Origin: Thermoanaerobacterium xylanolyticum LX-11
GTDB lineage: Bacteria > Bacillota > Thermoanaerobacteria > Thermoanaerobacterales > Thermoanaerobacteraceae
DNA: 64,000 bases
Reading direction: 5' to 3'
Assembly: GCF_000189775.2 (NCBI RefSeq)
Contig: NC_015555.1
Location: 569,001 to 633,000, forward strand
Shown here one piece after another: positions 5,719 through 27,258 of this stretch (position 1 is the first letter of the stretch; each line of letters opens with the position of its first letter). The notes beneath the pieces are model-generated. The model did not search any database and had not been told where the DNA came from. It worked only from the letters and a program-made list of their open reading frames with translations. The position numbers were made by a program, and so were the translations under genes.

Positions 5719-5760
5719 GTAAAAATGATTTAAGTAGTTTATTTTATAATTTGGTTTCAT

Positions 5761-5829
5761 AAGGATTTTTCCATTATAGTTAAAAAGACAAACTAAATAT
5801 GTTTTAGGCATCTGAGTGGAAAAATCCTT
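5761..5829. repeat. Interrupted inverted repeat between GH51 gene and ABC importer
   Basis: Arms AAGGATTTTTCCA (5761-5773) and TGGAAAAATCCTT (5817-5829) are perfect complements over 13 bp around a 43-base spacer. The design resembles the repeat at 21-92 (similar arm bases, similar spacer). It may fold as a leader hairpin; there is no T-run, so it is not an obvious terminator. Confidence 0.6.
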
Positions 5830-5900
5830 TGAAATAAATTAATATCCAATATAATTATACAATCAATTACACAAAAAATAAATGAAAGGAGAGTTTATCA

Positions 5901-7097
5901 GTGAAAAAAATGAAAAAAATTATTGCCTCAATTTTAGTTCTTGCAATGTTATTTTCATTAAGCGCATGTGGCAATAGCAGTTCAAACAAGACAGCACAGA
6001 ATAATGGCACTAATAGCAGCAATTCAACAACTCAAAATTCAAATTCTAATAAAAAAATTAAAATTGGTGTATCTATTTGGAGCTCAACAGACGTTCTTGG
6101 TAGTCAAGTCAAAAAAATGCTTGATTATGCAGCAAATGCACTTGGCGTAGAATTGATGTATGTAGATCAAGGACATGTTTCTGAAAAGGTTACGGCCAGT
6201 GTCAAAACGTTAGCTGCTGCTGGATGCCAGGGAATAATAATTTGTAACTCTGCTGATTCGGAAATGGCATCAGCGATTCAAACTGCTGATCAATATCATG
6301 TATATCTCGCACAGTTTTTCCGTATAATCAGCAAAGATAGAAGCCCACAAATATATGAACAAGCACAAAAATCTAAATACTATGTTGGTGCAGTTCATGA
6401 AGATGAAGTCGTAAATGGATATAACCTTGCAAATATCTTGATAAACAAAGGTAAGAGATTTATAGGTTTAATAGGATGGAATCCAGGCGATGCTACATTC
6501 CTACTAAGATGGGAAGGCTACAAGAAAGCTGTTGATCAATGGAATCAAAATCATCCAAATGATAAAGTTTTCATGACAGAGCCTGTATATGCTGGTACAA
6601 CTGCTGATGGTGGTGCGTCTGCAGCTACTTCATTGATGAATTCATATCCAAAGATGGATGCATTAATCGTTGCAGGTGGTGGAGGAGATCCTTTAGTTGG
6701 TGCATTAAATGCTATTAAGAATGCTGGAAAGACTGGTAAAATAGGTGTTGTTTCTACAGACTTTTTGCCTGACTTAGGACAAGAGTTGCAAAGCGGTGCA
6801 ATGACTGCTGAATCAGGTGGTCACTTTGCAGATCCATTATACGCTTTTATGATGGTTTACAACGCAATAAGAGGCAAATACGTAAAACCTGAAAATAGTT
6901 TTTATGAGATAAAGTTCCCGTATCTATATGTTTCATCTCCAAGCGAATACAATGACTATCAGAAATACTTTGTAGATAGTTTGCCTTACAATACAGAAGA
7001 AATAAAAGCAATGGCAAATGATTCATTCCAGCAATTAGCTGAGCAAGCATTGAATTTGTCTATAGACGATGTGAAGAAACGTCATGGTGGACAATAA
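5901..7097 (+). CDS. Sugar ABC transporter substrate-binding lipoprotein
   Basis: Periplasmic-binding-protein type I (ribose/LacI fold) solute binder of a CUT2-type importer, likely for L-arabinose or arabino-oligosaccharides. It is 398 aa with a lipoprotein signal: hydrophobic residues 7-20, lipobox LSAC and Cys23 as lipidation site, followed by a Ser/Asn/Thr-rich linker to about residue 50. The binding domain begins KIKIGVSIWSSTDVLG. GTG 5901 is placed well after gaaaggag; ATG 5910 is the alternative. Downstream are two permeases and a double ATPase. Substrate is inferred from the operon. Confidence 0.88.
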   Translation: MKKMKKIIASILVLAMLFSLSACGNSSSNKTAQNNGTNSSNSTTQNSNSNKKIKIGVSIWSSTDVLGSQVKKMLDYAANALGVELMYVDQGHVSEKVTASVKTLAAAGCQGIIICNSADSEMASAIQTADQYHVYLAQFFRIISKDRSPQIYEQAQKSKYYVGAVHEDEVVNGYNLANILINKGKRFIGLIGWNPGDATFLLRWEGYKKAVDQWNQNHPNDKVFMTEPVYAGTTADGGASAATSLMNSYPKMDALIVAGGGGDPLVGALNAIKNAGKTGKIGVVSTDFLPDLGQELQSGAMTAESGGHFADPLYAFMMVYNAIRGKYVKPENSFYEIKFPYLYVSSPSEYNDYQKYFVDSLPYNTEEIKAMANDSFQQLAEQALNLSIDDVKKRHGGQ

Positions 7098-7128
7098 GAT
7101 TTAATAAATTAGATTAAGTTTCAAAAAG

Positions 7129-7153
7129 GCCGTCAGTCGTAGCGGCTGACGGC
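7129..7153 (+). terminator. Intercistronic hairpin after the binding protein
   Basis: An 8-bp perfect stem GCCGTCAG/CTGACGGC (7129-7136, 7146-7153) with a 9-base loop and no T-run. Such GC-rich hairpins after a binding-protein gene commonly stabilise the upstream message, so that more binding protein than permease is made; that role here is inference. Confidence 0.65.
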
Positions 7154-7180
7154 AAAATACAAATTAGGCGGGTGATAATG

Positions 7181-8152
7181 ATGAGTAGTAGTACGGATTT
7201 TGTCAAAAGAAAAAGTATTGATGTATACTTTAAAAAATATTTTGGTATTTTATTGTTAATATTACTTACAGTAATCTTTTGGTTTATTTTTAAAGTGATT
7301 TCACCGCATAATTTTGGAACTCCAGGAAGACTTTTATCATATTTTCAGTCAAGTTTAATTTATGCGGTTGGTGGATGTGGTTTATATTTCATCGTTGCCA
7401 TGGGATTATGGGATTTTAGCATTGGTGCTAATCTTGTTTTATCATCAATATTAGCATGCTATTTTTCACAACATTATGGATATTTAGGGTTAATTTTAGC
7501 ACCTATTGTTAGTGGAACATTGATAGGTTTATTGAATGGTATTGTCTATATAAATTTTCATATACCTTCAATGATTGTTACTGTTGGACTTTCACTAATA
7601 TATGAAAGTTTAAGTGTTTTTGCGACACAAGGACAAGAGCAAATCTTAGGGCCCAATTATCGTGCTTTTGGGACATACCCATATAATGTAATTTTAGCAA
7701 TATGTGCTTTTATATTTGTGAGTTTAGTCATTAAATACACTAAAATGGGAACTTATATGTATGCAATAGGCAGCAATGAATATCTAGCCAAAAATATGGG
7801 TGTTGATGTAAATAGATTTAAAGTATTATCGTATGTGTTATGCGGTTTCTTAGTCGGTATTATGAGCATTCTAAATATCAGCTATGGGACTTCTATGACT
7901 GCGGCATCTGGCATGTCATCAATGAGCATGAATTTTACACCTTTAATGGGTACTTTTTTTGGGTTGTCATTTAGAAAATATGGAACGCCTGTAATAGCTA
8001 TCATAATTGGTGAATTTATAATTTCATTAATTTTCAATGGGTTTGTTGCTATTGGTGCCCCAACTACAATTCAAAATGTTGTTACAGGAATAGCTTTGTT
8101 GTTGATAGTTACAATTACTACAAAACCAGTTAGAGGCATTGTTGTCAAGTGA
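7181..8152 (+). CDS. CUT2-family sugar ABC permease 1
   Basis: Inner-membrane permease of the ribose/arabinose/galactose (CUT2, BPD_transp_2) class, 323 aa with about nine hydrophobic segments. Family-like stretches are FIVAMGLWDFSIGANLVLSS and YAIGSNEYLAKNMGVDVNRFKVLSYVL (read in two parts), the latter the cytoplasmic loop that contacts the ATPase. Start codons GTG 7172, ATG 7178 and ATG 7181 are in frame; gggtga spaced 5 bases favours 7181. The ATPase follows after 11 bp. It pairs with the permease at 9676, so the transporter has a heterodimeric membrane part. Confidence 0.88.
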   Translation: MSSSTDFVKRKSIDVYFKKYFGILLLILLTVIFWFIFKVISPHNFGTPGRLLSYFQSSLIYAVGGCGLYFIVAMGLWDFSIGANLVLSSILACYFSQHYGYLGLILAPIVSGTLIGLLNGIVYINFHIPSMIVTVGLSLIYESLSVFATQGQEQILGPNYRAFGTYPYNVILAICAFIFVSLVIKYTKMGTYMYAIGSNEYLAKNMGVDVNRFKVLSYVLCGFLVGIMSILNISYGTSMTAASGMSSMSMNFTPLMGTFFGLSFRKYGTPVIAIIIGEFIISLIFNGFVAIGAPTTIQNVVTGIALLLIVTITTKPVRGIVVK

Positions 8153-8163
8153 GGTGAAAGATA

Positions 8164-9660
8164 TTGAAAGAAGAAATTTTAAGAGTGGAAAAACTAAACA
8201 AATATTTTGGCAGTAATCATGTGGTAAAAGATGCTACTTTATCATTTAAAAGAGGGGAGATACATGGCTTAATTGGAGAAAATGGTTCTGGGAAATCTAC
8301 ATTGGTTTCTATGATATCAGGCATTTATGAAATAAACAGTGGGAAAATTTTTTTAGAAGACAGAGAAATTAAGGTAAGATCACTTGTTGAAGCAAATAGA
8401 AATGGCATCTCTATAATAGTCCAAGAAGCTGGTACAATATTGGGTTTAACTGTAGCGGAAAATATTTTTTTAGGTAATGAAGAAAAATTTATAAAACATG
8501 GCATTAAAAATATTGCTTCTATGAATAAAGAAGCACAAGAGTTATTGGAGAAATACGAATGTAGTAACATAAATGCGACAGATTTAATCGATAAATATAA
8601 TTTTGAAGAGCGAAAACTTATCGAAATAATTAAAGCAATATATATTGGACCAAAAGTTTTTATTGTTGATGAAACAACTACTGCTTTAAGCCAAAATGGT
8701 CGTGAACTATTATATAAGCAGATGACACGAATAAAAGAAGAAGGAAATACTGTTATTTTTATTACTCACGATTTAGATGAATTAATCAAATGGACTGATC
8801 GCATTACTGTAATGCGTGATGGTGTAGTAGTTGATACAGTAGATAGTGATTCAGTGACGGAAGATGATATAAAAAGGTTAATGGTAGGAAGAGAATTAAG
8901 CGGACATTATTATCGTACAGATTACGAAAAACCGGTATTTAAAGAAACAGTTTTAAAATTAAGCAATGTAACTGTGCCAGGAAAGTTCGACAATATCAGC
9001 TTTGAATTACACAGAGGAGAAATACTTGGAATTGGTGGACTTAGCGAATGTGGAATGCATGAGGTAGGCAAAGCAATTTTTGGAGCATCATTTAATAGAT
9101 TAGGCGATGTTATTCTTAATAATGAAGTTAAAATCAACTCTATTGAAGTTGCCATAAAAAATGGCATTGCCTATGTTTCAAAGGATAGGGATAATGAATC
9201 GCTTATAGTTAATGATACAATTTCAGATAATATTTGCATTACATCATTAGATGATTTAAAAGAACACAACATAATATTTAATAGTAAACTAAGTAAATTT
9301 GCTAATAAATACGCAGAAGTATTAAGTGTAAAAATGGAAAATGTCAATCAGTTGGTATCTGACCTATCTGGTGGCAATAAGCAAAAAGTTGCTTTGGCAA
9401 GGTGGATTGCTAAAAATTCTGAAATATTTATATTAGATAGTCCAACCAGAGGTATTGATGTTAAAGTTAAAGCTGATATTTATGATCTGATGACTGAGAT
9501 GAAAAATCAAGGCAAATCAATACTTTTAATTTCTGAAGAAATTTTAGAATTAATAGGCATGTGTGACAGAATTTTAATAATGAAAGATGGAAAAATCAAC
9601 GGAGAATTTATGAGGGACATTAATTTGACAGAAGAAGATTTAATAATGAAAATGATTTAA
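8164..9660 (+). CDS. CUT2-family sugar ABC ATPase (duplicated NBD)
   Basis: ATPase of RbsA/MglA/AraG type, 498 aa with two fused nucleotide-binding domains. NBD1 has Walker A GENGSGKST near residue 39 and a Walker B FIVDETT. NBD2 has the degenerate first loop GLSECG, an intact signature LSGGNKQK and Walker B IFILDSP. The weaker signature in NBD1 (KYNFEERK) and degenerate Walker A in NBD2 are usual for this class. TTG 8164 is chosen because gaggtgaaag ends 3 bases upstream. It is the third gene of the importer block. Confidence 0.9.
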   Translation: MKEEILRVEKLNKYFGSNHVVKDATLSFKRGEIHGLIGENGSGKSTLVSMISGIYEINSGKIFLEDREIKVRSLVEANRNGISIIVQEAGTILGLTVAENIFLGNEEKFIKHGIKNIASMNKEAQELLEKYECSNINATDLIDKYNFEERKLIEIIKAIYIGPKVFIVDETTTALSQNGRELLYKQMTRIKEEGNTVIFITHDLDELIKWTDRITVMRDGVVVDTVDSDSVTEDDIKRLMVGRELSGHYYRTDYEKPVFKETVLKLSNVTVPGKFDNISFELHRGEILGIGGLSECGMHEVGKAIFGASFNRLGDVILNNEVKINSIEVAIKNGIAYVSKDRDNESLIVNDTISDNICITSLDDLKEHNIIFNSKLSKFANKYAEVLSVKMENVNQLVSDLSGGNKQKVALARWIAKNSEIFILDSPTRGIDVKVKADIYDLMTEMKNQGKSILLISEEILELIGMCDRILIMKDGKINGEFMRDINLTEEDLIMKMI

Positions 9661-9675
9661 GTGAGGGTGAAATGT

Positions 9676-10656
9676 ATGACTGACTTGCAAAATAGTGTTG
9701 AGATAAATGGTGTAAAAAACAAAATACAAAGATATTTAGAAAAACCAATTGCAAGAAGTATATTACCAGTGATAGGGCTGGTAGTTGTACTGGTTATTTT
9801 TACCATGTTAACAGGTGGTAAAATTATAAGCCCAATAAATATAACATTATTACTTGATGAAGTATACGTATTGATGATTGCTTCAATTGGAGTATTTTTT
9901 ATCATGACTATGGGATGCCTTGATTTTTCTCAAGGATCTATACTTGGAATTGCATCGATAGTATTTTCTTATCTATCTGGTTTTAATATTTTATTGGCGA
10001 TTGTAGGTGCAATTATTGCAGGAGCGATTATTGGGGCAATAAATGGTTTTTTTCACGTGAAGCGTAAAATACCTTCATTTATTGTCACAATATGTACAAT
10101 GTTTTTGTTTCGTGGGCTTATTGCGTATTTGACGACGAATTCACCTGTTTATGCGATAAGTGACATTTTAAATTATAATACAGTAACAGTTAAATTAATA
10201 TCAACAGTGGCAATTTTGCTAATTGCTTTTTTGGTTTTTCACTTTACTAAGTTGGGAATCTATCTAAAAGCAATTGGTGCTGGGGAAATTGGTTCAAGAT
10301 TTGCTGGAGTAGATGTTGATAAGATCAAATGGATAATGTATATAGTAGCTGGAATGATTACGGGATTTGCAGCATTCATAAATGTTGTTGAGGTTGGATC
10401 TGTAACAGCATCAGGTGGAAGCATGTTTGAGACAGAAATTTTAATTGCATTAGTTTTGGGAGGATTGCCAATCACAGGAGGTGTTATGGCGCGTTTTTCA
10501 AACATCATTACAGGTGTACTGACATATAAAGTTTTATCTGCAGGATTAAATATGATAGGTCTTACAACTCAAACTCAACAATTAATAGAAGGCGTTATAT
10601 TCTTATTGGTTGTGGCATTGTTCAGTGATAGAAAATCATTGCATATTATTAAGTGA
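9676..10656 (+). CDS. CUT2-family sugar ABC permease 2
   Basis: Second membrane subunit, 326 aa, with the same class features as the first permease: FFIMTMGCLDFSQGSILG and the coupling loop YLKAIGAGEIGSRFAGVDVD. GTG 9661 is in frame, but it overlaps the Shine-Dalgarno gagggtga, so ATG 9676 is preferred. Starts right after the ATPase stop. The two permeases are diverged from one another, indicating an obligate heterodimer rather than a recent duplication. Confidence 0.88.
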   Translation: MTDLQNSVEINGVKNKIQRYLEKPIARSILPVIGLVVVLVIFTMLTGGKIISPINITLLLDEVYVLMIASIGVFFIMTMGCLDFSQGSILGIASIVFSYLSGFNILLAIVGAIIAGAIIGAINGFFHVKRKIPSFIVTICTMFLFRGLIAYLTTNSPVYAISDILNYNTVTVKLISTVAILLIAFLVFHFTKLGIYLKAIGAGEIGSRFAGVDVDKIKWIMYIVAGMITGFAAFINVVEVGSVTASGGSMFETEILIALVLGGLPITGGVMARFSNIITGVLTYKVLSAGLNMIGLTTQTQQLIEGVIFLLVVALFSDRKSLHIIK

Positions 10657-16166: not shown

Positions 16167-17279
16167 TTGGAAGAAAATGTGCCAAAATATCAAATAGTAA
16201 AAGATTATATTACCAATTTAATAATAAAAAACAATATAAATATAGATGATCCACTGCCAACTGAAAGTGAACTGATGGAAATATTCGGTGTAAGCAGACA
16301 TACTATTAGGAAAGCTCTTGATGACCTTGAAAATGAAGGGTGGCTTTACAGAAAGCAAGGTTTGGGAACTTTTTGTGCTGATAGAAATTCTGTGAAAAGC
16401 TATGATAATAAAAATATTGCAGTTATAACGACGTATATAAATGACTATATATTCCCAAGGATCATAAAAGGAATCGATCAAATATTAGCTAAAAATGGGT
16501 ATTCCATATTGCTTTTCAATACGAATAACCGCATTGAGACTGAGATGGACATATTAGAGAATGTCCTGACAAAGGATATTAGGGGATTGATTATCGAGCC
16601 TACTAAGAGTGCACTGCCCCATATCAATCTAAATTATTTTGATGAGTTAAAAAACAAAGGGATACCGTACATCTTTATAAATAGCTTTTATGAAGAATTA
16701 AATCCATCTTATATCATTCAAGATGATGAAGGCGGCGGATACATGGCGACAGACCATCTTATAAAGCTTGGACACAAAAACATAATAGGCATATTTAAAA
16801 GCGATGATAACCAGGGCCTTAATAGGTACAAAGGATATGTGAAAGCCTTAAGGGAACACAATATTAAAATCAAAGAAGACAACATAATCTTTTACACGAC
16901 AGAGGAAATGAAGACAAAGCCAAGGGAAAAAATATACGAGATATACTCAAAGTGGGTCAATAAACCGACGGCTATTGTCAGCTACAACGATCAAATCGCC
17001 ATGTGGATCTTAGATCCAATAAGAGAATTAGGCTACAGTGTGCCTGATGATATTTCAATCGTAAGCTTTGATGATTCTGATTATGCAGAGCTTTCCAATG
17101 TAAAGCTTACATCCATCATACATCCTAAAGAAGAGATGGGGCGGCTTGCTGCTTCGACTCTCTTTGACCTAATAAAAAAAGGGAAAAAGGCTTTTGCAAA
17201 TCCTGTAAATATTCGCATAAAGCCTGAAATAAGGATTAGGAATTCTACTAAGGAGATCGAATTGGAGGAAGTGCGATGA
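16167..17279 (+). CDS. araR: GntR/LacI-type arabinose repressor (AraR-like)
   Basis: 370 aa with an N-terminal GntR winged helix (PTESELMEIFGVSRHTIRKA, residues about 30-50, wing GLGTF) and a C-terminal LacI/ribose-binding-type sensor from about residue 80 (IAVITTYINDYIFPRIIKGI; YNDQIAMWILD; ISIVSFDDSD). This hybrid architecture is that of Bacillus AraR, which is released from DNA by L-arabinose. Start TTG 16167 follows gggagg. It overlaps araM by 4 bases (ATGA). Targets probably include the two boxes at 3979 and 4146. A -10-like TATAAT is at 16121. Confidence 0.9.
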   Translation: MEENVPKYQIVKDYITNLIIKNNINIDDPLPTESELMEIFGVSRHTIRKALDDLENEGWLYRKQGLGTFCADRNSVKSYDNKNIAVITTYINDYIFPRIIKGIDQILAKNGYSILLFNTNNRIETEMDILENVLTKDIRGLIIEPTKSALPHINLNYFDELKNKGIPYIFINSFYEELNPSYIIQDDEGGGYMATDHLIKLGHKNIIGIFKSDDNQGLNRYKGYVKALREHNIKIKEDNIIFYTTEEMKTKPREKIYEIYSKWVNKPTAIVSYNDQIAMWILDPIRELGYSVPDDISIVSFDDSDYAELSNVKLTSIIHPKEEMGRLAASTLFDLIKKGKKAFANPVNIRIKPEIRIRNSTKEIELEEVR

Positions 17280-18562
17280 ATGATGGCACAAGGATAAAGG
17301 AGATAGAAATCTGCAGTGGTGCCTTGTATGATGTCCCGAATATATTAAACAAGATAGGTATAAATTCTAAAGTATTGATTGTGTGTGATAAAAATACTTA
17401 CGAAGTTGCAGGATTGACTCTAAAAAATGTATTAGAAGATAAAAAGTACGATGTATTGTTGTGTAATCTGAATAGAAGTGGAAATTTAGTGCCTGATGAA
17501 AAAGCAGTAGGTGAAGTGTTGATACATCTTAAAGATGACTTCGAGGCTATGATTGCTGTTGGAGCAGGAACAATAAACGATGTTGTGAAATTTATAAGCA
17601 GTAGAGCGAAAATACCTTACGGCATAGTTGCAACAGCTCCATCAATGGATGGATATGCGTCATCGGTGTCGCCTCTTATTGTAAATGGCTTTAAAAGAAC
17701 TTACGATGCTACGTATCCTATATTTATCATAGGTGATACTAAAGTCCTAAAAGATGCGCCTTATGATATGATTGCATCAGGTTTTGGAGATATTATTGGC
17801 AAATTCACATCATTGGCTGATTGGTATGTAAGTAGCATCATAACGGGAGAAGACTATTCTGAAGAAATCGCAGATGATGTGAAAAAGTCCCTTTATAAAT
17901 GTGTAAATGTCAGCAAAAGCTTAAAAAGCAAAGATGAAAGTGCTGTGAGTAAGCTTATGGAGGCGCTAATTTTGTCAGGCATATCGATGCTTAAGTTTGG
18001 AAATTCCAGGCCTGCATCGGGTGCTGAGCACCACTTATCACACTTCATAGAAATGAGAGAGCTTTCAAACGGAGAAATTCGGCATTCACATGGCGCGAAG
18101 GTAGGCATCATGACGAAAATTGTTGTTAAACTTTACAATACTGTATTTTCTTTTGACAAAGATGATATTATTAAAATGATGAAAGAAAGAAAAAGTGAAT
18201 CAAAAGAAGAGTTTGAATTTAGGATAAACAAGAACTTTGGAAGTTTATCATCTGAGGTTTTTGACGATATAGGTTATTACTATTTGGATGAAAATGAGAG
18301 AAAGATGAGACAGGAGAGGATTTTGGACAACTGGGATATGATGCGGAAGTGGGTATCAGAAAATGTGCCGACGGTGGAGTATGTGGATGAGCTTTTAAAT
18401 GATGCTGGTGCACCAAATGATATTGTCTATCTTGACCTTAAATATGATGAACTTAAAGATGTTTTGTTGAATGCAAAAGAGGTAAGAAAGAGGTACACGA
18501 TATTAAGGCTTGCTGAAGACATAAATATAGATAAGATATTTGACATAGCGCTAAAGAATTGA
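17276..18562 (+). CDS. araM: AraM-type sn-glycerol-1-phosphate dehydrogenase
   Basis: 428 aa, slightly longer than the Bacillus protein (about 394). It belongs to the iron-dependent-alcohol-dehydrogenase-like fold and reduces DHAP to sn-glycerol 1-phosphate. Motifs: nucleotide-binding GAGTINDVVKF, TAPSMDGYASSVSPLIVNG, and metal-ligand regions GFGDIIGKF, SGAEHHLSHF and SHGAKVGIM. AraM lies in the arabinose operon of B. subtilis as well; its metabolic link to arabinose is not settled. Start ATG 17276 overlaps the repressor stop. Confidence 0.88.
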   Translation: MNDGTRIKEIEICSGALYDVPNILNKIGINSKVLIVCDKNTYEVAGLTLKNVLEDKKYDVLLCNLNRSGNLVPDEKAVGEVLIHLKDDFEAMIAVGAGTINDVVKFISSRAKIPYGIVATAPSMDGYASSVSPLIVNGFKRTYDATYPIFIIGDTKVLKDAPYDMIASGFGDIIGKFTSLADWYVSSIITGEDYSEEIADDVKKSLYKCVNVSKSLKSKDESAVSKLMEALILSGISMLKFGNSRPASGAEHHLSHFIEMRELSNGEIRHSHGAKVGIMTKIVVKLYNTVFSFDKDDIIKMMKERKSESKEEFEFRINKNFGSLSSEVFDDIGYYYLDENERKMRQERILDNWDMMRKWVSENVPTVEYVDELLNDAGAPNDIVYLDLKYDELKDVLLNAKEVRKRYTILRLAEDINIDKIFDIALKN

Positions 18563-18581
18563 GGCATAAAGCTCTCAATTC
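18556..18581 (+). terminator. Terminator between araM and the convergent P-type ATPase
   Basis: An 8-bp perfect stem (18556-18563 with 18574-18581) overlaps the araM stop and is followed by TTTATT. It lies five bases before the 3' end of the convergent ATPase gene, so it may act in both directions. Confidence 0.6.
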
Positions 18582-18585
18582 TTTA

Positions 18586-21447
18586 TTAAATTCTGCTAAT
18601 TAAGCCAGAGCTTACAAGTACGATGAACCAATCCATAAGGTTAAGCTTTGCATTTCCAAATATATTTGCAATAGGATTTATGTATATGGTTGCCAATAGC
18701 GTTGCGATAGATATTGTTACAGATGGCAACAATAATTTATTTTGAGATATTGGTGTAGGCATTTCGGCGCGTCTTGCGTCAAATACGTTAAACATCTGTG
18801 CCATGACTAAGTTTGAATATGCCATAGTTTTGGCGATGACGGGATTTCTAAACGTTTCTCCGTATTTAAAGGCAAATAGCGTCGTAAATCCTATTAAAGA
18901 ACCTCTTTTGAGTATGTAGTTATATAATTTGTTGTCAAGCAGTTGGGTATTTTCATTTTTTTTAAGTTTTAATGCTGATGGTTCTACGCCTAATGCCAGT
19001 GCAGGTATTCCTTCAGTTACAAGATTTATGCTTAAAATCTGACTTGATGTCAGTGGCATATCCATACCTGTCATTGATGCCATGGCTAAAGCTATGATTT
19101 CGCCAACGTTTCCTGACAAAACGTACCTTAGAAATTTTTTTATGTTTTCGTTGATGCCGCGACCTTCTTTTATAGCCATGACAATTGTTGTGAAATTGTC
19201 ATCAGCCAATGTTATATCAGAGGCGTTTCTTGTAACGTCTGTTCCGCCTTTACCCATTGCTATACCTATATTCGCTTCTTTTACTGCTGGTGCATCGTTG
19301 ATGCCATCTCCTGTCATGGCAACGATGTACCCTTTTTTTCTTAAAGCTCTGACGATCTTTAGCTTGTGGTGGGGAGAAGTTCTGTAAAATATGTTTACGT
19401 CATCTATAAGGTTTATTAACTCATTGTCATTCATTTTATCAAGTTCTTGACCAGAAATTGCTTTTTTGTCCTTTAAAAGTCCGATTCTCTCTCCTATTGA
19501 CATAGCAGTGTTTTTTTGGTCTCCCGTTATCATGACAACATTAATTCCATTTTTCAAGCATTCTTCAATAGTATTTTTAACTTCATCTTTTGGTGGATCT
19601 TCCATGCCTATAAGACCAGCAAATATAAAATCACTGTCAACATTGTTGCCTTCATCGTTTAAAATCTTGTAAGAAACAGCTAAAACTCTTAATGCTTTGT
19701 TAGACATTTCATCGTTATGTTTTATGAGCTTGTTTTTGTTTATTTTCCCTAATTTTATAGCTTTGCCTGCTCTTAAAAAGTAGCTGCATTTATTTAAAAT
19801 CACATCAGGAGCACCCTTTGATATGGCCAATTTGCATGAAACAGCATCGATTACGACAGTCATGAATTTGCTTGATGAGTCAAAAGGTATCTCATCAATT
19901 CTTTCGTATTCCTTACTTTCAATGCCAGCTTTTGAAGCTGCAACGATTATAGCACCTTCTGTTGGATCACCAGATACTGCCCAATCGTTTCCTTTTTTAA
20001 TTAATTTTGAATTGCAGCACATAGCACTGTATTGCAAGATTGAATATAGGTCTTTATCATCTTTTGGGTTTATCTTGACATTGTCACTATAAAAACTACC
20101 TATTGGTGTATACCCAATTCCTGATATAGTCCATACTTTGTCAAGGGTTCGTATTTCTTTCACTGTCATCTCGTTTTTTGTAAGTGTTCCAGTTTTATCA
20201 GTACATATAACATTGGCTACTCCCAATGTTTCTACAGAATTAAGTTTTCTCACTATAGCATTTCTTTTTGCCATTCGCTGTACACCATAAGCTAAAGCTA
20301 TTGTCACAATAGTAGATAAGCCTTCCGGTATGGCTCCTATTGCAAGGCTTATGCCTATTCCGAGCATCTGTGAAAAAGATTTGCCTCTTATTATTCCGCT
20401 TAAGAAAATGCTGAAGCTGATTGCTATGATTGCTATTGTTATGTTTTTTCCTAAAATTTCAAGGCTTTTATTAAGCGGTGTTGAAGTATTTCTTTCTTCG
20501 TTTAACATTTTTGCAATTTTGCCTATTTCTGTTGACATTCCGGTTGAGACTACGATAAGCTTGCCGTATCCTTTGGTTATGCTTGTTCCCAAGTAAGCCA
20601 TGTTTTTTCGTTCAGCTAATGGAATATCATCCTTTAATATCACCAAATCGTGTTTTGATGATGGGTGTGACTCACCTGTTAAACAGCTTTCATCAGTTTC
20701 TAAATTTTTACTTTCCACTATGCGAGCATCGGCGGGTACAATATCTCCTGGTTTTACAATCACTACATCGCCTGGTACAAGTTCTGATGAGCTTAACAAT
20801 GAAATTTTACCGTCTCTTAAAACAGATGATCGGGGTGATGTCAACTTGTGTAGCGATTCTAGAGATTTTTCGGCATTGTACTCTTGAAGCACGCCAAGGC
20901 TTGACTCTAATATGACAATCGATATTATCACAATAGAGTCAGCTACATCCCCAATCAAAAAAGAAATGCCTCCAGCAAAAAGAAGTATCTTAAAAAGGTA
21001 GTTGTTCACCTGATTTAGCATCATTTTAAAAAAAGATGGTTTATTACCGTTTATCAGTTGGTTTAAACCGTATGTACTTAATCTTTTTTTAGCTTCAACT
21101 GTTGATAGTCCATAGTCAATATCTGTGTTTAGAGCTTTCTCTATTTGCTTTTTTGTCATGATGTGCCAAGGGTATTGAGCTTGCTGTTTGATAGGAAAAT
21201 TATCTTTTGTATTCCTTATATTGAATTTTATCTTGTATATTTCTTTCTTGATGTCTTCGACTTTTAAGCTTTCGTCAAAAGTAATGATGATGTTTCCGGT
21301 CATTGGGTTAGCTGTTACACTTAGTATTCTGCTTTTGAGAGATAGATTTTTTTCCAGCCTTTTTGCCAACAATTCATTTCTGTATAGGCCGCTTACGGAA
21401 AATCGGATTCGCTTTGTATATGATGTATATTTTCTTATGAGTTCCAT
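18586..21447 (-). CDS. P2-type cation ATPase with HMA-like N-domain
   Basis: A 953-aa P-type ATPase. The catalytic core is of the P2 (Ca2+/PMR1-like) kind: actuator TGES near residues 257-260, M4 IPEGLS, phosphorylation Asp417 in DKTGTLT, hinge TGDGINDAPA, and M6 NLVTEGIPALALG, where SERCA has NLVTDG. Unusually it carries about 70 extra N-terminal residues that resemble an HMA fold but lack CxxC (RIRFSVSGLYRNELL to VEDIKKEI). The same extra domain begins the divergent ATPase at 21875. ATG 21447 is preferred to 21453 because ggaggt is then 7 bases away. Transported ion not determinable; a divalent cation is likely. Confidence 0.88.
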   Translation of the reverse strand: MELIRKYTSYTKRIRFSVSGLYRNELLAKRLEKNLSLKSRILSVTANPMTGNIIITFDESLKVEDIKKEIYKIKFNIRNTKDNFPIKQQAQYPWHIMTKKQIEKALNTDIDYGLSTVEAKKRLSTYGLNQLINGNKPSFFKMMLNQVNNYLFKILLFAGGISFLIGDVADSIVIISIVILESSLGVLQEYNAEKSLESLHKLTSPRSSVLRDGKISLLSSSELVPGDVVIVKPGDIVPADARIVESKNLETDESCLTGESHPSSKHDLVILKDDIPLAERKNMAYLGTSITKGYGKLIVVSTGMSTEIGKIAKMLNEERNTSTPLNKSLEILGKNITIAIIAISFSIFLSGIIRGKSFSQMLGIGISLAIGAIPEGLSTIVTIALAYGVQRMAKRNAIVRKLNSVETLGVANVICTDKTGTLTKNEMTVKEIRTLDKVWTISGIGYTPIGSFYSDNVKINPKDDKDLYSILQYSAMCCNSKLIKKGNDWAVSGDPTEGAIIVAASKAGIESKEYERIDEIPFDSSSKFMTVVIDAVSCKLAISKGAPDVILNKCSYFLRAGKAIKLGKINKNKLIKHNDEMSNKALRVLAVSYKILNDEGNNVDSDFIFAGLIGMEDPPKDEVKNTIEECLKNGINVVMITGDQKNTAMSIGERIGLLKDKKAISGQELDKMNDNELINLIDDVNIFYRTSPHHKLKIVRALRKKGYIVAMTGDGINDAPAVKEANIGIAMGKGGTDVTRNASDITLADDNFTTIVMAIKEGRGINENIKKFLRYVLSGNVGEIIALAMASMTGMDMPLTSSQILSINLVTEGIPALALGVEPSALKLKKNENTQLLDNKLYNYILKRGSLIGFTTLFAFKYGETFRNPVIAKTMAYSNLVMAQMFNVFDARRAEMPTPISQNKLLLPSVTISIATLLATIYINPIANIFGNAKLNLMDWFIVLVSSGLISRI

Positions 21448-21607
21448 CTTCATACCTCCAGAACGTTTTATAATAAAAATATTTTGTCCAAAATTTTTTA
21501 TTTCACATAAGGAAAAATTTTGAATGATGACAGCTTTCGATGACTTTTATTAATATTATTTGTAAATGCCGGTTAAAATAAATAAAAATAGACAGGAGGT
21601 CTTTAAG

Positions 21608-21844
21608 ATGAGCAAAGAGTTTTGGATTGGTGTAGGAGCATTGGGAATAGCACTTTTATTGGCGAAACCGGCAAAGAAATTAGCAGTAGGGCTTGTAGGT
21701 ACTGCTATGATTCTTGCCGATAAAGGCAAAGAATTGGCTATAAATGTGAAAGAAGAAGTAGAAGACATAATAGCCGAAGCCCAGTATCAACATACTCAAT
21801 CAAAAATAAAGACACAGCCTGAAACAGCAGATAATCCCTCATAA
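21608..21844 (+). CDS. Small one-TM protein linked to P-type ATPase (PacL/DUF1490-like)
   Basis: 78 aa. It starts with a hydrophobic helix (FWIGVGALGIALLLAKP, residues 5-21), then an amphipathic AVGLVGTAMILADKGKELA and an acidic VKEEVEDIIAEAQ, with a polar tail. I recall a like layout, including a DVVAEAR-type motif, in the mycobacterial PacL (DUF1490) proteins that assist Zn/Cd P-type ATPases. The match is by eye. It lies 31 bp before the P1B-like ATPase. SD caggaggtct precedes ATG 21608. Related TM modules occur in the proteins at 24305 and 31531. It has no Cys, one His and no metal-binding tail motif. Confidence 0.75.
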   Translation: MSKEFWIGVGALGIALLLAKPAKKLAVGLVGTAMILADKGKELAINVKEEVEDIIAEAQYQHTQSKIKTQPETADNPS

Positions 21845-21854
21845 GAGGGATTAT
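21831..21854 (+). repeat. Perfect hairpin between small protein and P1B-like ATPase
   Basis: A 10-bp perfect stem (21831-21840 with 21845-21854) with a 4-base loop overlaps the stop codon of the small protein. No T-run follows. It may limit read-through to the ATPase or protect the upstream mRNA. Confidence 0.65.
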
Positions 21855-21874
21855 GCATGTATTGGAGGTTTGAC

Positions 21875-24070
21875 ATGATAAGAGAGATTTTTTCGTTGCC
21901 TGGATTAGCGCGGCTAAGCTTTGATGCACTTTACAAAGATAAATCCCTTGAAAAGAAGATAAATCACTATTTAAAAAGCTCTAAAGGAATCAAATATGTA
22001 AATGCCAGCAGCATTACTGGAAAAGTGCTTGTAAAATACGAAGGCAGGACATTAGGAGAAATAAAAAGAGAAATCATAAATGCGATTTTCAAAGATGATG
22101 TAGATGATAATGTAAAGCCGTATGAACCAGAAGATCTGCCATTAAAGACTCAATTTGTGATGGTAGCTATGCCATTAGCTGCTACGATTTACACCGTTTT
22201 AAAGCGCATATTCGCTGGCAAATCACCGTTAAGCGGCCATTATGGGCTATTAAGCATATCATCAATTGTGTCGATTGTTGCTGGATATCCAATATTTAGA
22301 AGTGGCATAAATACGCTGCTTAAGGAACGCAAAATAAATGGCGATTTGATGATAACAATTGCTACTACCATAATGCTTTTTATAAGAGAAAGCATATTGG
22401 GGCTTGTGGTTATTTTTCTCGTCAATTTAAGTGTCTTTATTCACTCTTTAAACATACACTATAATAAGAAAGCATTAGAAAGCTTCCTTAGATTAAAACC
22501 GGGGAAAGTGTGGATGGCATTAGAGGGAAGAGAAATAGAAGTACCTGTAGAGGAACTTAATGAAGGCGATGTGATTTCACTTAAAAAAGGTGATGTGGCG
22601 CCGTTTGAATGCGAAGTAGTAGAAGGCAGTGCAATCGTAGATGAAAAGTATATACGAGGAAAAGTAAAATACGTCAAAAAGCAAAAAGGTGATAAAATAA
22701 TTGAATCATCATTGCTTATTGATGGGGAAGTAAAGGCCAGAATAACTGACATTGAGGCAAACGAGAGCATAGAAGATCTGTACAAAATTGTGGAATTAGA
22801 ATCAAGGGAGAAATATATTACAAATACTGCTGACGTATATATTAACAAAGTTATACCGCTGTCTTTTTTCATTACAGGTTTTGTGTCATTTTATACAAAG
22901 GATATATTGAAGGGAATATCATCAATGCTTGTTTTATGCCCATGTACTTTTGCACATGGTTCTACTGGTGTCTATGGTATAGCTGTCAAAAATGCGGCAA
23001 AGAGAGGCATATTGATAAAAAGTTCATCTGCAATCGAAAATATGGCAAAAGCTGATATGCTGATTTTTGATAAAACGGGAACACTTACGGAAGGCAGACC
23101 TATTGTAAGTGAAATTTTGCCGTCATCAAGTACTGACAAAAATCATATACTAAAGATAGCCGCGTCTGCAGAATATGGTGTCGTACATCCTGCAGCATTG
23201 TCTATAATTAAAAAAGCAGATGATATGGGGATAAAGGTTGAGGATTTTTCTCATGGAAAAGAAGTCAAAAGCATGGGTGCTTTTGCTTGTGTAGATGGGA
23301 AACAAATGTATGTTGGCAATGAGAGGTTTATGGAGATAAACAATATTGATTTACATGATGTAGAAAATCTCAGTAATGTTTTAAAAAGCTTAAACAGAGG
23401 TGTAATATACGTCGCTGTTGACGGGAATGCTATTGGAGTCATTGGAATGAAAGATGTGCTTAAGAAGAAGAGCAAAGCTGCAGTAGAACTTGTACGTTCA
23501 TTAGGCTTTAACGATGATAGTATTTATATTTTATCAGGTGATGACAAGGAGCCGACAGATAGAGTGGCTTATGAATTAGGTATAGTTAATGCGTTTAGCA
23601 GTGTATCGCCTGATGAGAAGAAGAATTTTGTAAAAAGGCAAAAATATGATGGTAAAACTGTCGTAATGGTCGGCGATGGACTAAATGATGTGAAGGCCAT
23701 GAGAAGTGCCGATGTTGGAATTATTTTAGGAAGACCCATAAGTAAAAAGATATTAAAAGCGCTTGATGTTGCTGTAATCGACGAAAATCCTTTAAAAATA
23801 CCGTATTTGATAGAGCTATCAAGGTATTCAAAGGAAGTGATAAAGCAAAATCATGTTATAGCATCAACAATGAGCTATATAGAATACGTAATGACGCTTT
23901 TTGGTAAAGTAAATCCATTTACGGCAGCAATGCTACACAGCATGAATCAATTAATCGTGTTGGCAAATTCTATTAAAGTTTATAAATATTCATCAAGGAG
24001 GATTATTTCTGATGGAAGAAATGAAAAAAAGATTCGAAGAAGCTTCGAAAGTTTTAAGACAGACGGTTGA
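21875..24070 (+). CDS. P1B-like metal-transporting P-type ATPase
   Basis: 731 aa. The N-terminal ~70 residues (LARLSFDALYKDKSLEKKI to GEIKREI) form a cysteine-less HMA-like domain matching that of the divergent ATPase. The membrane metal motif is CPC at residues 355-357 in LCPCTFAHGS, Asp399 is the phosphorylated residue in DKTGTLT, and the hinge is GDGLNDVKAM. No HP dipeptide box was verified beyond GVVHPAALS. The CPC motif marks a P1B heavy-metal exporter, but the residues after it (TFAHGSTG) are unlike the usual ALGLATP of copper pumps, so the metal is uncertain. ATG 21875 follows ggagg by 6 bases; ATG 21857 is less likely. Confidence 0.85.
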   Translation: MIREIFSLPGLARLSFDALYKDKSLEKKINHYLKSSKGIKYVNASSITGKVLVKYEGRTLGEIKREIINAIFKDDVDDNVKPYEPEDLPLKTQFVMVAMPLAATIYTVLKRIFAGKSPLSGHYGLLSISSIVSIVAGYPIFRSGINTLLKERKINGDLMITIATTIMLFIRESILGLVVIFLVNLSVFIHSLNIHYNKKALESFLRLKPGKVWMALEGREIEVPVEELNEGDVISLKKGDVAPFECEVVEGSAIVDEKYIRGKVKYVKKQKGDKIIESSLLIDGEVKARITDIEANESIEDLYKIVELESREKYITNTADVYINKVIPLSFFITGFVSFYTKDILKGISSMLVLCPCTFAHGSTGVYGIAVKNAAKRGILIKSSSAIENMAKADMLIFDKTGTLTEGRPIVSEILPSSSTDKNHILKIAASAEYGVVHPAALSIIKKADDMGIKVEDFSHGKEVKSMGAFACVDGKQMYVGNERFMEINNIDLHDVENLSNVLKSLNRGVIYVAVDGNAIGVIGMKDVLKKKSKAAVELVRSLGFNDDSIYILSGDDKEPTDRVAYELGIVNAFSSVSPDEKKNFVKRQKYDGKTVVMVGDGLNDVKAMRSADVGIILGRPISKKILKALDVAVIDENPLKIPYLIELSRYSKEVIKQNHVIASTMSYIEYVMTLFGKVNPFTAAMLHSMNQLIVLANSIKVYKYSSRRIISDGRNEKKIRRSFESFKTDG

Positions 24071-24239
24071 CATATCTTTTGCAGAGTATTCAAAAGATAA
24101 ATCAACTAAAAATGAAATTGTAAAATTGTGGCAAGAAACAATTAATGATTTTTTACAGTATGCTGTAAAGATGAGCGAAAAACACCAAGCTAAAGAATTG
24201 TATAAATCTATTGCAAGGACACTCATTTTTGGAAAATAG
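24012..24239 (+). CDS. Small helical protein of the P-ATPase cluster
   Basis: 75 aa, with no TM segment; it is mostly charged and amphipathic helix (MEEMKKRFEEASKVLRQTVD). The gene overlaps the 3' end of the ATPase by 59 bases and has its own SD aaggagg, so it is probably co-translated with the ATPase. I do not recognise the family. It is a candidate soluble partner of the pump. Confidence 0.68.
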   Translation: MEEMKKRFEEASKVLRQTVDISFAEYSKDKSTKNEIVKLWQETINDFLQYAVKMSEKHQAKELYKSIARTLIFGK

Positions 24240-24304
24240 CGATTTAATAATATATTTTTTTCGGGATAAAATAATAGAAGAACCTATGAAGGGAGGAAAC
24301 TTCA

Positions 24305-24664
24305 ATGGGTATCGCTAAAACTTTAGGAAGTAGAAGCTTTTTCTGGGGAATTGGTGTTGCTGCATTAAGTTATATTTTATTTCCAAAAGCAAAGGAAAAG
24401 GCAAAGCCAGTTCTAATAAATGGTGTAAAAAGCACTTATGATATGGCTGATAAGGCATCTTTTGTAATCAATAAAGGCAAAGACAGAATAGCAAAAATGT
24501 TTAATGACAATGATAGAGACGGCGTCGAAGGTGAAAATTTATACCAAAGCGAAATAGACAGTTTAGAAAAAGAGAGAGAAAAGGCTATAAAAGAAGTAAA
24601 TGAGCTTAAAAGCAGGATAGAGATGTTAGAAGGTGAGTTAAGCAGATTAAAAACTGCTGAATGA
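24305..24664 (+). CDS. One-TM plus coiled-coil protein of the P-ATPase cluster
   Basis: 119 aa: an N-terminal membrane helix (FFWGIGVAALSYILFP, residues 12-27), a basic segment KAKEKAKPVLINGVKSTYDM, and a C-terminal coiled coil (residues 83-116, SLEKEREKAIKEVNELKSRI). Both the TM module and the coil are closely matched by the C-terminal half of the ferritin-like protein at 31531, and the TM module also by the 78-aa protein at 21608. SD gggagg precedes ATG 24305. It is the last gene before the first copy of the duplicated terminator. Function unknown; a membrane scaffold for the ATPases is a reasonable guess. Confidence 0.75.
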   Translation: MGIAKTLGSRSFFWGIGVAALSYILFPKAKEKAKPVLINGVKSTYDMADKASFVINKGKDRIAKMFNDNDRDGVEGENLYQSEIDSLEKEREKAIKEVNELKSRIEMLEGELSRLKTAE

Positions 24665-24666
24665 TT

Positions 24667-24706
24667 ATAAAACCCAACTAAACGTTGGGCTTTTTTTTTA
24701 GTGTAA
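24667..24706. terminator. Terminator, copy 1 of a repeat flanking the HEPN/MNT pair
   Basis: Stem CCCAAC/GTTGGG (24673-24678, 24684-24689) plus nine T on the + strand; on the - strand the flanking AAAA gives a shorter U-tract, so it may serve both directions. The whole 40-base block recurs at 25576-25612 with only the T-run length changed. Confidence 0.85.
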
Positions 24707-24712
24707 TCCGAA

Positions 24713-25117
24713 TTATTGATAATCTTTTGTATTATATCCTATTTTTTTAACAGTAAAGTTTATTATATATTCCGCATCATTTATGGCTTTAAGTACATCA
24801 CTTTCGTTTATTTCAATTTCAAATGGATATCTTGGCTGCACACCATATACTGTAAGGCTTGAGCAAAACTTACTTATTTCATCGAAATCATTGTCAATAC
24901 TTGAACACGTTTTGCAAAGCAATCTTAAATCATGAGTTCGCAATGGTTCAACATCGTGATAAATTAAATATGCTTTTAAAACTTTTTCTACAGCTTGTTG
25001 ACAATGGTAACATATAATTTCAAATGGAGCTGGGTGCATGTTTAAAAGAAATTTTGCGCTAGAGAAGTCCTTATTTGAAAAGTCAAGCCATTCTTTTACT
25101 ATGTCTATTTTTTTCAT
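24713..25117 (-). CDS. HEPN-domain toxin of a HEPN/MNT pair
   Basis: 134 aa from ATG 25117 (MKKIDIVKEWLDFSNKDF), or 146 aa from ATG 25153. It has the all-helical HEPN layout: DFSSAKFLL in helix 1, CYHCQQAVEKVLKAYLIY in helix 2, then RTHDL, the spot where HEPN RNases carry their R..H motif, and AEYIINFTVKKI near the end. HEPN toxins act as RNases and are silenced by the cognate nucleotidyltransferase. The gene overlaps the end of the antitoxin gene upstream on the same strand, the normal order for MNT-HEPN pairs. Confidence 0.88.
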   Translation of the reverse strand: MKKIDIVKEWLDFSNKDFSSAKFLLNMHPAPFEIICYHCQQAVEKVLKAYLIYHDVEPLRTHDLRLLCKTCSSIDNDFDEISKFCSSLTVYGVQPRYPFEIEINESDVLKAINDAEYIINFTVKKIGYNTKDYQ

Positions 25118-25430
25118 ATAATAATACCCCATCTCTTGCAATTTTTCTTTCAAGCGTAGGTAAGCGTCTGCGACTATTAAAATCGCTTGATTTAGTCACA
25201 ATTAGATCAACAGGTCTTGTCTGAACTTTATATAATAAATCGCCTAAAAGCTGCATAGCTTCTATTGGTCGAATACTGTTGTCAGGTACAATTACAAATA
25301 TGTCATAATCACTTTCTTCTGATGGTGTTCCATAAGCATATGAGCCAAAAAGATATATTTTATCAGCATCAATATTACTGAGTATTAGATTTTTAATAAT
25401 TTCTAGCTCGTCTTTATTTTGAATATTCAT
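25083..25430 (-). CDS. MNT-type nucleotidyltransferase antitoxin
   Basis: 115-aa minimal nucleotidyltransferase. The catalytic signature GSYAYGTPSEESDYDIFV (residues about 29-46) has the GS and the DxD acidic pair; a third acidic residue lies in RPVDLIVT. In known MNT/HEPN systems this protein adds AMP to the HEPN toxin and neutralises it. It precedes and overlaps the HEPN gene. The pair occupies the whole segment between two copies of the same terminator. Confidence 0.9.
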   Translation of the reverse strand: MNIQNKDELEIIKNLILSNIDADKIYLFGSYAYGTPSEESDYDIFVIVPDNSIRPIEAMQLLGDLLYKVQTRPVDLIVTKSSDFNSRRRLPTLERKIARDGVLLYEKNRHSKRMA

Positions 25431-25575
25431 TTAATCACCTGCTATTTTTCATAATCACTATTATTATTTGACAGTCTAAATAGATATTATGACGATTTAA
25501 TAATGCCCTCTATAAACATTATAGAATACAACTGTACTTGAAGCAAGCAAATAAAATTATCAAATAGGAATTTCC

Positions 25576-25612
25576 ATAAAACCCAACTAAACGTTGGGCT
25601 TTTTTAGTGTAA
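25576..25612. terminator. Terminator, copy 2 of the repeat flanking the HEPN/MNT pair
   Basis: The block from ataaaaccc to agtgtaa matches 24667-24706 base for base except for six instead of nine T. There is no + strand gene directly upstream of this copy that would need it, which suggests it was duplicated with the insertion. Confidence 0.8.
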
Positions 25613-25698
25613 ATTAACTTTATTAAAATATTGAAAAAAGTTAAAGAATGTAGTATCATGTTATTAAGATGACAATGAATATGAAAGGAATGTGTACT

Positions 25699-27258
25699 AT
25701 GGATGCTAATATAGCTTCACTAAAAATTGAAGAACTGCTTATATATGCTTTGAAGCACGGCATGATAGAAGGTACAGACTATATCCAATGTCGCAATTCA
25801 TTGATGGATTTGTTTGAGATACAGGAGCCATACAATGGCATTGTAGATGATGTAGATTTAGACGATCCACATGATATTCTCAATTCTCTTTTAGATTATG
25901 CATACGAAAAAGGTTTTTTCAAGGAAAATACGATTACAAATAGAGATCTTTTTGATACGAGGATTATGGGTTTATTGATGCCGAGACAGTCTGAAGTTAT
26001 AAAAAAATTCGATGATATAAAAAGGGTATCAGGTATTGAAAAAGCTACAGACTATTTTTACAGCTTATCAAAGGATTCATATTATATACGGATGGATAGA
26101 ATTGCGAAAAATAAATATTGGAGGACGGATACAGAATACGGCAGTTTGGAGATTACAATTAACCTTTCAAAACCTGAAAAGGACCCAAAAGACATAGCGG
26201 CAGCTAAAGCATTAAAAGAGACAAATTATCCTAAATGCCTTTTGTGCCTGGAAAATGTTGGATTTAGCGGTAACTTAAATCATCCAGCAAGACAAAATCA
26301 CAGGGTAATACCAGTAAAGGTTGCTGGAGAGCAGTGGTATTTTCAGTATTCGCCTTATGTTTACTACAATGAACATTGCATATTGTTTTATGAAAAGCAT
26401 GTGCCAATGCAAATATCAGAAAAGACGTTTATCAGATTGTTGGACTTCATAGATCAGTTTCCACACTATTTTATAGGTTCTAATGCTGATTTACCGATAG
26501 TAGGTGGTTCCATCTTATCCCATGAGCACTTTCAAGGTGGGCGCCATGTATTTCCTATGGAGGAAGCAAAGGTAGAAGAACATTATAGAAATGAAATGTT
26601 TAAAGATTTAGATGCTGGAATATTGAAGTGGCCTCTATCAGTCATAAGGCTTTCAAGCAAAAATAAAGAAGAATTGATTGATGCGTCATCCATGATTTTA
26701 AGAGAGTGGAGAAATTACAGCGATCCATCTGTTGATATAATTGCTTATAGCACAGTTGGTGGTGAGAAGGTACCGCATAATACAATAACACCTATTGCGA
26801 GGAAAAATGGTGATGGCGCTTATGAGATGGATTTAGTCCTGAGGAACAACCGTACTACTGATGAGTACCCTTATGGTATTTTTCATCCACATGAGGAACT
26901 TCACCATGTAAAGAAGGAAAATATAGGGCTTATTGAAGTTATGGGGCTTGCTATTCTTCCTGGAAGGTTAAAAAAAGAACTTGATGAGATAGAAATGATA
27001 TTATCAGGTAACAGAAAATACGACAAAAAAGAGATTTCTGCAGATGATCCGCTTTTTAAGCATGTACCATGGATTGATGGGCTTGTAAATAAATACGGTG
27101 TGAATCTTAAGAGAGAAGAGGCAGAAGTTGTACTAAAAGATGAGGTAGGTGAAATTTTCTTAAAAGTGCTGCTGGATGCAGGCGTATTTAAGCGTGATGA
27201 GAAGGGAAAAGAGGCATTTGATAAGTTTTTAGATAGTATACATTTTAAAAAAATTTAA
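25699..27258 (+). CDS. galT: UDP-glucose--hexose-1-phosphate uridylyltransferase (type 2)
   Basis: Leloir-pathway enzyme exchanging UMP between UDP-glucose and galactose 1-phosphate. At 519 aa it is of the long Firmicute GalT class rather than the ~350-aa enterobacterial class. Visible motifs: CLLCLENVGFSGNLNHPARQ (about residues 185-205) and the catalytic-His region SHEHFQGGRH. Several in-frame ATGs exist (25669, 25681); aaagga ending 9 bases before makes ATG 25699 likely. First gene of galT-galK-galE, with galK starting 17 bp later. Confidence 0.93.
   Translation: MDANIASLKIEELLIYALKHGMIEGTDYIQCRNSLMDLFEIQEPYNGIVDDVDLDDPHDILNSLLDYAYEKGFFKENTITNRDLFDTRIMGLLMPRQSEVIKKFDDIKRVSGIEKATDYFYSLSKDSYYIRMDRIAKNKYWRTDTEYGSLEITINLSKPEKDPKDIAAAKALKETNYPKCLLCLENVGFSGNLNHPARQNHRVIPVKVAGEQWYFQYSPYVYYNEHCILFYEKHVPMQISEKTFIRLLDFIDQFPHYFIGSNADLPIVGGSILSHEHFQGGRHVFPMEEAKVEEHYRNEMFKDLDAGILKWPLSVIRLSSKNKEELIDASSMILREWRNYSDPSVDIIAYSTVGGEKVPHNTITPIARKNGDGAYEMDLVLRNNRTTDEYPYGIFHPHEELHHVKKENIGLIEVMGLAILPGRLKKELDEIEMILSGNRKYDKKEISADDPLFKHVPWIDGLVNKYGVNLKREEAEVVLKDEVGEIFLKVLLDAGVFKRDEKGKEAFDKFLDSIHFKKI

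Follow-up and report, generated by a model that had tools for sequence, protein, structure and literature searches.

The window, a stretch of 64,000 nucleotides at positions 569001–633000 of the complete 2.53-Mb genome of Thermoanaerobacterium xylanolyticum LX-11, contains two divergently oriented genes for P-type ATPases, a P2-type pump on the minus strand and a P1B-like protein on the plus strand, together with three genes for small proteins. In window coordinates, the features are:

18586–21453, minus strand: P2-type cation ATPase, 955 aa, with all catalytic motifs intact
21211–21453, minus strand: N-domain of the P2 pump (residues 1–81), HMA-like and cysteine-free (Pfam HMA_2 7e-6, AlphaFold2, PDB fold search)
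21454–21607, no strand: intergenic region that separates the P2 gene from the divergent plus-strand genes, Shine-Dalgarno sites lying to either side
21608–21844, plus strand: 78-aa single-TM protein, PacL/DUF6110-like (sub-threshold Pfam matches, alignment to small TM proteins)
21875–24070, plus strand: P1B-like protein, 731 aa, with IRGK in place of TGE and with CPC, DKTGT and GDGLND kept
21875–22099, plus strand: N-domain of the P1B-like protein (residues 1–75), HMA-like and cysteine-free (Pfam HMA_2 1.6e-5, AlphaFold2, PDB fold search)
24012–24239, plus strand: 75-aa protein, predicted soluble, with a 59-bp overlap with the 3′ end of the P1B-like gene
24305–24664, plus strand: 119-aa protein with one TM helix and a predicted coiled coil, PacL/DUF6110-like

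The 75-, 78- and 119-aa proteins, first named in an earlier reading made from the letters and open reading frames only (the sequence-only reading), all correspond to real ORFs. The likely start of the P1B-like gene is the ATG at 21875, which has GGAGG ahead of it, and not 21857. Proteins of Thermoanaerobacterium saccharolyticum NTOU1 and of one Thermoanaerobacterium MAG share 93% identity with the encoded protein. The locus is bounded on the left by a 428-aa dehydrogenase-like gene (17276–18562) and on the right by a HEPN/nucleotidyltransferase pair, after which come galT, galK and galE (gal names assigned from the sequences). The HEPN (PF05168) and nucleotidyltransferase genes, which resemble HEPN/MNT toxin-antitoxin pairs, lie on the minus strand at 24713–25430, between the 119-aa gene and galT, and are missing from the corresponding place in one congener (genome G007, locus L159; G-numbers denote the genomes of relatives and congeners and L-numbers the compared loci).

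The intergenic region at 21454–21607 is 85–97% identical across congeners and includes an A+T-rich, 31-bp near-palindrome at 21472–21502 (AATAAAAATATTTTGTCCAAAATTTTTTATT), also conserved in congeners, which is a possible operator. An Rfam search of positions 17000–26000 for riboswitches returned no match.

Both ATPases Carry a Cysteine-Free HMA-like N-Domain

The sequence-only reading had claimed that the two pumps share a cysteine-less HMA-like N-domain on cores of different class, PEGL/NLVTEG of P2 type versus CPC of P1B type; the core motifs are present at the positions given below, and the shared domain is borne out by several comparisons. The first ~75–80 residues of the two proteins can be aligned, with 28% identity over 72 aa in pairwise BLASTP (E 6e-8), and profiles built from the two N-domain groups match one another at 99.6% (E 1e-24, 75 columns). 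Neither N-domain contains a cysteine, so that the metal-binding CxxC of the HMA fold is missing from both. Matches to Pfam HMA_2 (PF19991) are sub-threshold, at 26.5 bits for the P2 pump and 25.3 bits for the P1B-like protein against a curated cut-off of 30 bits, which part of the relatives reach and neither window N-domain does; these two genes are the only ones in their own genome with HMA_2 matches at E < 0.01.

AlphaFold2 models of the two N-domains have an identical E-E-H-E-E-H order (pLDDT 81.5 and 81.4), and HMA, MerP and CopZ domains prevail among their PDB fold matches (TM-score ~0.6, best E 0.002–0.003), which also include certain RNA polymerase subunits whose topology is similar. 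Both N-domains are thus predicted to adopt the ferredoxin-like topology of HMA domains. Unrelated folds, which the sequence-only reading had named as grounds for abandoning its idea, were not seen, since the predicted fold is one and the same.

That reading had also called for a search for other ATPases with this N-domain. HMMs of the domain, trained without Thermoanaerobacterium and without fused proteins, recovered both window N-domains at 1e-8 to 2e-12; further P2 and P1B pumps in Bacillota carry the domain as well. These HMMs also match the canonical HMA domains of other, ordinary P1B pumps, and detected the domain in 0 of 19 ordinary P2 pumps; the N-domain is therefore a divergent HMA domain, and the unusual feature is that a P2 pump carries it. 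The family signature, [LIM]PGRxRxxxPxLxxN, is partly eroded in the window: TKRIRFSVSGLYRN stands in the P2 N-domain where the family has LPGRxRxxVPxLxxN, and the P1B-like N-domain carries LPGLARLSFDALYKD. The signature domain occurs as well in small LPGR/HMA_2-domain proteins of ~100 and 200 aa that have no ATPase core and are mostly encoded as tandem pairs (L078–L092, L096).

The P2 Chain Is Intact and Belongs to a Distinct Clade

The P2 chain retains TGES (20668–20679), PEGL (20317–20328), DKTGT (20185–20199) and GDGIND (19294–19311), and comparison with its congeners gives a dN/dS of 0.11–0.13. Its TM6 ion-site motif, NLVTEG at 19009–19026, has a glutamate instead of the aspartate of ordinary Ca pumps. 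P2A Ca2+ ATPases bind their ion through N..E in TM5 and N..TD in TM6; the window protein keeps the TM5 part (NVGE) and departs from the TM6 part (NLVTE). Other members of its clade alter these ligands further, with either NLVTE or a Gly-Asp form in TM6 and, in many cases, S..Q in TM5. The altered ligands suggest that the ion site of this clade has changed and argue against a plain SERCA-type Ca2+ pump.

P2 pumps that bear the N-domain or its fused equivalent form one clade (support 98/97), also when 15 members are compared with 17 ordinary pumps (100/99). Attraction through N-domain similarity was considered as a source of this grouping and rejected, as the clade holds, with support of 99, once the N-domain columns are removed. 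In the tree of 15 and 17 pumps the closest relative of the window protein is the C-terminal half of a fused protein (L120; 46% identity), and the fused and split states require two to three changes on the P2 tree. In a draft assembly of T. saccharolyticum (L076; G004, contig 67) the P2 gene is frameshifted past residue ~775, either in reality or through sequencing error.

The P1B-like Chain Has Lost a Catalytic Glutamate and Remains under Selection

Functional P1B ATPases carry TGE(S), CPx, DKTGT and GDGxND. The P1B-like protein has three of the four, CPC (22937–22945), DKTGT (23069–23083) and GDGLND (23672–23689), and in its A-domain IRGK (22652–22663) occupies the site of the TGES of active pumps, a loss that the sequence-only reading had overlooked. 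The glutamate of TGES coordinates and positions the water for removal of the aspartyl phosphate (PMC9651954; PMC11977196), and the P1B-like protein is accordingly predicted, from its motifs, to be incapable of normal dephosphorylation.

The same position is altered repeatedly among relatives. The TGE glutamate is replaced by lysine in the window, by alanine in L070, by serine in the fused protein of L120 and by glutamine in L120, L122, L123 and L111, and the TGE region is absent altogether in L108, L109, L110 and L113. Five proteins (L108–L110, L111 and L113) have also lost the phosphorylated aspartate of DKTGT. L112, a split case, is an exception in that TGE and DKTGT are both intact, and inactivity of the partner is therefore not universal. 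TGE is retained in all nine other LPGR P1B pumps, which have the same N-domain, and in every P2 pump of the set. In a quick tree the window protein groups with glutamate-less proteins, fused N-terminal halves and L112 (SH-aLRT 94), and L111_590 falls outside this group on a long branch.

Decay of the P1B-like gene into a pseudogene was considered and rejected on its dN/dS of ~0.1 (0.09–0.11 against congeners), a value similar to that of the P2 gene; both genes are under purifying selection. IRGK itself is present in all three congeners in which the motif was read. At two further loci (L122, 1258–5894; L123, 7594–12269) the 75-aa gene stands between the tandem genes of an active P1B pump and of a P1B-like protein of the TGQ type (Glu to Gln), which make an active/inactive pair within one class. 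The TGQ-type proteins of L122 and L123 thus have no P2 pump beside them but a P1B pump that is active.

The Two Chains Are Fused, Adjacent or Jointly Absent in Relatives

In six other Bacillota genomes the two halves form one protein. Single chains of 1636, 1539, 1528 and 1548 aa in L070, L108, L109 and L110, respectively, unite the P1B-like half with a P2 half that is intact, and the same fusion extends across a frameshift in the assembly in L118 and L120. The L118 fusion, on the minus strand at 4265–10176, is G+C-rich, and its N-terminal half lacks both TGE and DKTGT. The halves are separate neighbours in four lineages, namely the window with three congeners, L112, L111 and L113. Five genomes (L114–L117 and L124), some of them at contig edges, have a P2 pump with the N-domain and no recognisable P1B-like partner.

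Within Thermoanaerobacterium, four genomes have both pumps and four have neither; in a fifth case the P1B-like gene stands without the P2 gene on a short contig. In two of the pump-less congeners, G007 (L159) and G005 (L160), the flanks of the locus align, with short pieces between them that match the P1B-like gene (in both) and the P2 gene (in G005). The remnants, at L159 8111–8510 and L160 7317–8123, are 71–84% identical to the pump coding DNA. Aligned flanks and leftover coding stretches suggest that G007 and G005 lost their pumps by decay. Taken from gene arrangement, the fusion in six genomes, the adjacency in four lineages and the joint presence or absence strongly suggest a functional link between the two pumps.

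Relation to FUPA24 and a Proposed Two-Part Pump

The idea of a fusion between two classes of P-type ATPase is already known from descriptions of the FUPA24 family. In FUPA24, as Chan et al. reportedly put it in their abstract of 2010, a type I ATPase is joined to a type II ATPase, and the type II part alone remains functional. FUPA24 proteins (TC 3.A.3.24), among them the mycobacterial CtpH and CtpI, are twofold-long, begin with a large N-terminal segment and hold the functional motifs in the type II half at the C-terminus (PMC3573892). CtpH and CtpI have received special mention as uncharacterised proteins that may make up a family of their own (PMC10654040). The fused Bacillota proteins (L070, L108–L110, L118 and L120) share this architecture as it is described in print: a double-length chain with the type I half before the type II half is found in L070 and L108–L110 and, with frameshifts, in L118 and L120. 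In the window, by contrast, each half has a gene to itself, the two genes being divergent, and each half begins with an HMA-like domain. All motifs of the P2 half are intact, and the P1B-like half, although without TGE, still has DKTGT, CPC and GDGLND. A search for actinobacterial FUPA24 by way of plasmids matched ordinary P2 pumps, and the regions examined in Streptomyces NBC_01450 and Nonomuraea contained no fusion. As far as we have searched, the new elements are the split form, a separate N-domain on each half, repeated loss of the TGE glutamate under selection, and the link to PacL-like and 75-aa proteins.

With belief and doubt evenly matched, we propose that the window encodes a split, FUPA24-like two-part P-type ATPase, in which the P2 chain works and the P1B-like chain is a non-cycling partner. 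The divergent pair would encode the split form of what the FUPA24 (CtpH/CtpI) architecture presents as a fusion, with the P2 chain as the working pump. Having kept its fold and phosphorylation motif, the P1B-like chain could at most be phosphorylated and would then be locked, since the TGE glutamate is lost; it would probably not pump itself but serve the P2 pump as a structural or gating subunit. The HMA-like domains of the two chains, both free of cysteine, would act in docking or regulation and not as Cu/Zn donor sites, and the 78- and 119-aa PacL/DUF6110-like proteins, perhaps with the 75-aa protein, would bring the pumps together in the membrane or keep them stable there. A physical heteromer, a scaffold or gating role for the P1B-like chain and a role for the small proteins are all points that we infer. 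Several observations weigh against the proposal: the P2 pumps with no recognisable partner in five genomes, the intact TGE and DKTGT of L112, the TGQ-type proteins that accompany an active P1B pump, the P1B-like clade for which a quick tree is the sole support, and the partly eroded, sub-threshold N-domains of the window.

More tentatively, and leaning towards doubt, we suggest the wider reading that this is a heteromeric pump built from two P-type classes, in which a former P1B ATPase has become a dedicated, selected subunit of a P2 ATPase and of which CtpH/CtpI-type FUPA24 proteins are the fused form. A P-type ATPase would then have been reused as a subunit of another P-type class, and FUPA24-like pumps would be linked with a cysteine-free HMA domain and with small membrane proteins that form a conserved set. 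With the halves as separate genes, Thermoanaerobacterium allows the role of the inactive half to be tested separately. KdpFABC is comparable in that a P-type pump subunit works with a second large membrane subunit; KdpA, however, is channel-like and not a former P-type ATPase, and we claim no sequence kinship.

Small Proteins and Alternative Explanations

The sequence-only reading had seen in the shared N-domain a sign of a common partner, perhaps the small proteins. In Mycobacterium, PacL proteins bind and gather several P-type pumps, and DUF6110 proteins accompany P1B6 pumps (PMC9374683; PMC13043812). The 78- and 119-aa proteins are single-TM proteins with a weak, sub-threshold PacL/DUF6110 likeness and can be aligned to small TM proteins beside related ATPases, in a comparison whose E-values, from a tiny database, serve for ranking only. 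In Pfam, the 78-aa protein matches DUF5132 (2e-4) and DUF6110 (6e-3; 17.1 bits, cut-off 26), both below threshold, with no DUF1490 (PacL) among the matches listed. The likeness to the PacL/CtpC effluxosome (DUF1490, with the related DUF6110 beside P1B6 pumps) lies in small single-TM proteins next to P-type pumps, a single such protein being able to serve several pumps; the differences are the weakness of the similarity and the P2 type of one of the window pumps.

Members of the 75-aa family are encoded in 27 of 398 Bacillota genomes, and the gene lies within ~10 kb of a protein of the LPGR ATPase type in 17 of the 27, lies elsewhere in nine and is undecidable in one. It is intact in pump-less G007 and G005, as is the 119-aa gene in G007; G010 and G011 have 75-aa and 119-like genes without pumps, and homologues of the 119-aa gene accompany the pump in L112, while L159 and L162 have such homologues but no pumps. 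As these genes persist in congeners that have neither pump, the 75- and 119-aa proteins do not belong strictly to the pumps, and their candidacy as dedicated partners is weakened. The common-partner idea is supported in part: the resemblance of the 78- and 119-aa proteins to a family that serves several P-type pumps speaks for it, and the persistence of the 75- and 119-aa genes without pumps speaks against it. Each pump may have its more direct partner in the other, given that the supposed P1B pump lacks a catalytic residue.

An unlikely explanation, though one that deserves weight, is that of two independent pumps for different ions, docked by their common HMA-like domain to a PacL/DUF6110-like platform, as with PacL and the Ctp pumps in Mycobacterium; this is the strongest version of the idea put forward in the sequence-only reading. 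The resemblance of the 78- and 119-aa proteins to DUF6110/PacL would fit such a platform, as would the small TM proteins that adjoin many related ATPases. However, the similarity is sub-threshold, the persistence of the 75- and 119-aa genes without pumps speaks against it, and independent pumping by the P1B-like protein is doubtful because its TGE glutamate is missing.

It is improbable, in our view, that the P1B-like protein remains phosphorylated, locked in an E2P-like state, and modulates expression or activity as a regulator or metal sensor that is no subunit of the pump. Retention of DKTGT, GDGLND and CPC alongside the loss of TGE, in the window and its congeners, is what such a protein might show, and TGQ variants do recur (L120, L122 and L123); but the proteins of L108–L110, L111 and L113, which lack the phosphorylated aspartate as well, persist beside or fused to P2, and phosphorylation is therefore not generally needed.

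We give equally little credence to the view that the shared domain is a leftover of general HMA ancestry that implies no joint function, and the gene pair a chance neighbourhood. The match of the domain HMMs to canonical HMA domains and the low identity of the two window N-domains would agree with this view. Against it stand the recurrence of fusion and adjacency across several families, the single clade formed by the domain-bearing P2 pumps, the absence of the domain from all 19 ordinary P2 pumps and the joint absence of the pumps in congeners.

Finally, it is very improbable that the locus is an iron-storage ferrosome of the FezA/FezB (P1B6) kind: a small TM protein does lie beside an HMA_2-like P1B ATPase, as in the L125 and L126 pairs of a DUF6110-like protein and a P1B6-like pump with TM4 YSC, and the P1B6-like relatives of L125–L127 bear the same N-domain, but the window pump has CPC instead of the YSC of those P1B6-like relatives, its TGE is gone, it is found together with a P2 pump, and no other ferrosome gene was recognised.

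A further group of proteins adjoins these ATPases. Their segments of the type (I/L)KxE(I/V)LxxL, some of them repeated, occur at L111 3008–4351, L124 4726–5947, L108 13484–14266, L109 13748–14626 and L120 8489–9382, and in L120 they are joined to a PacL-like TM segment.
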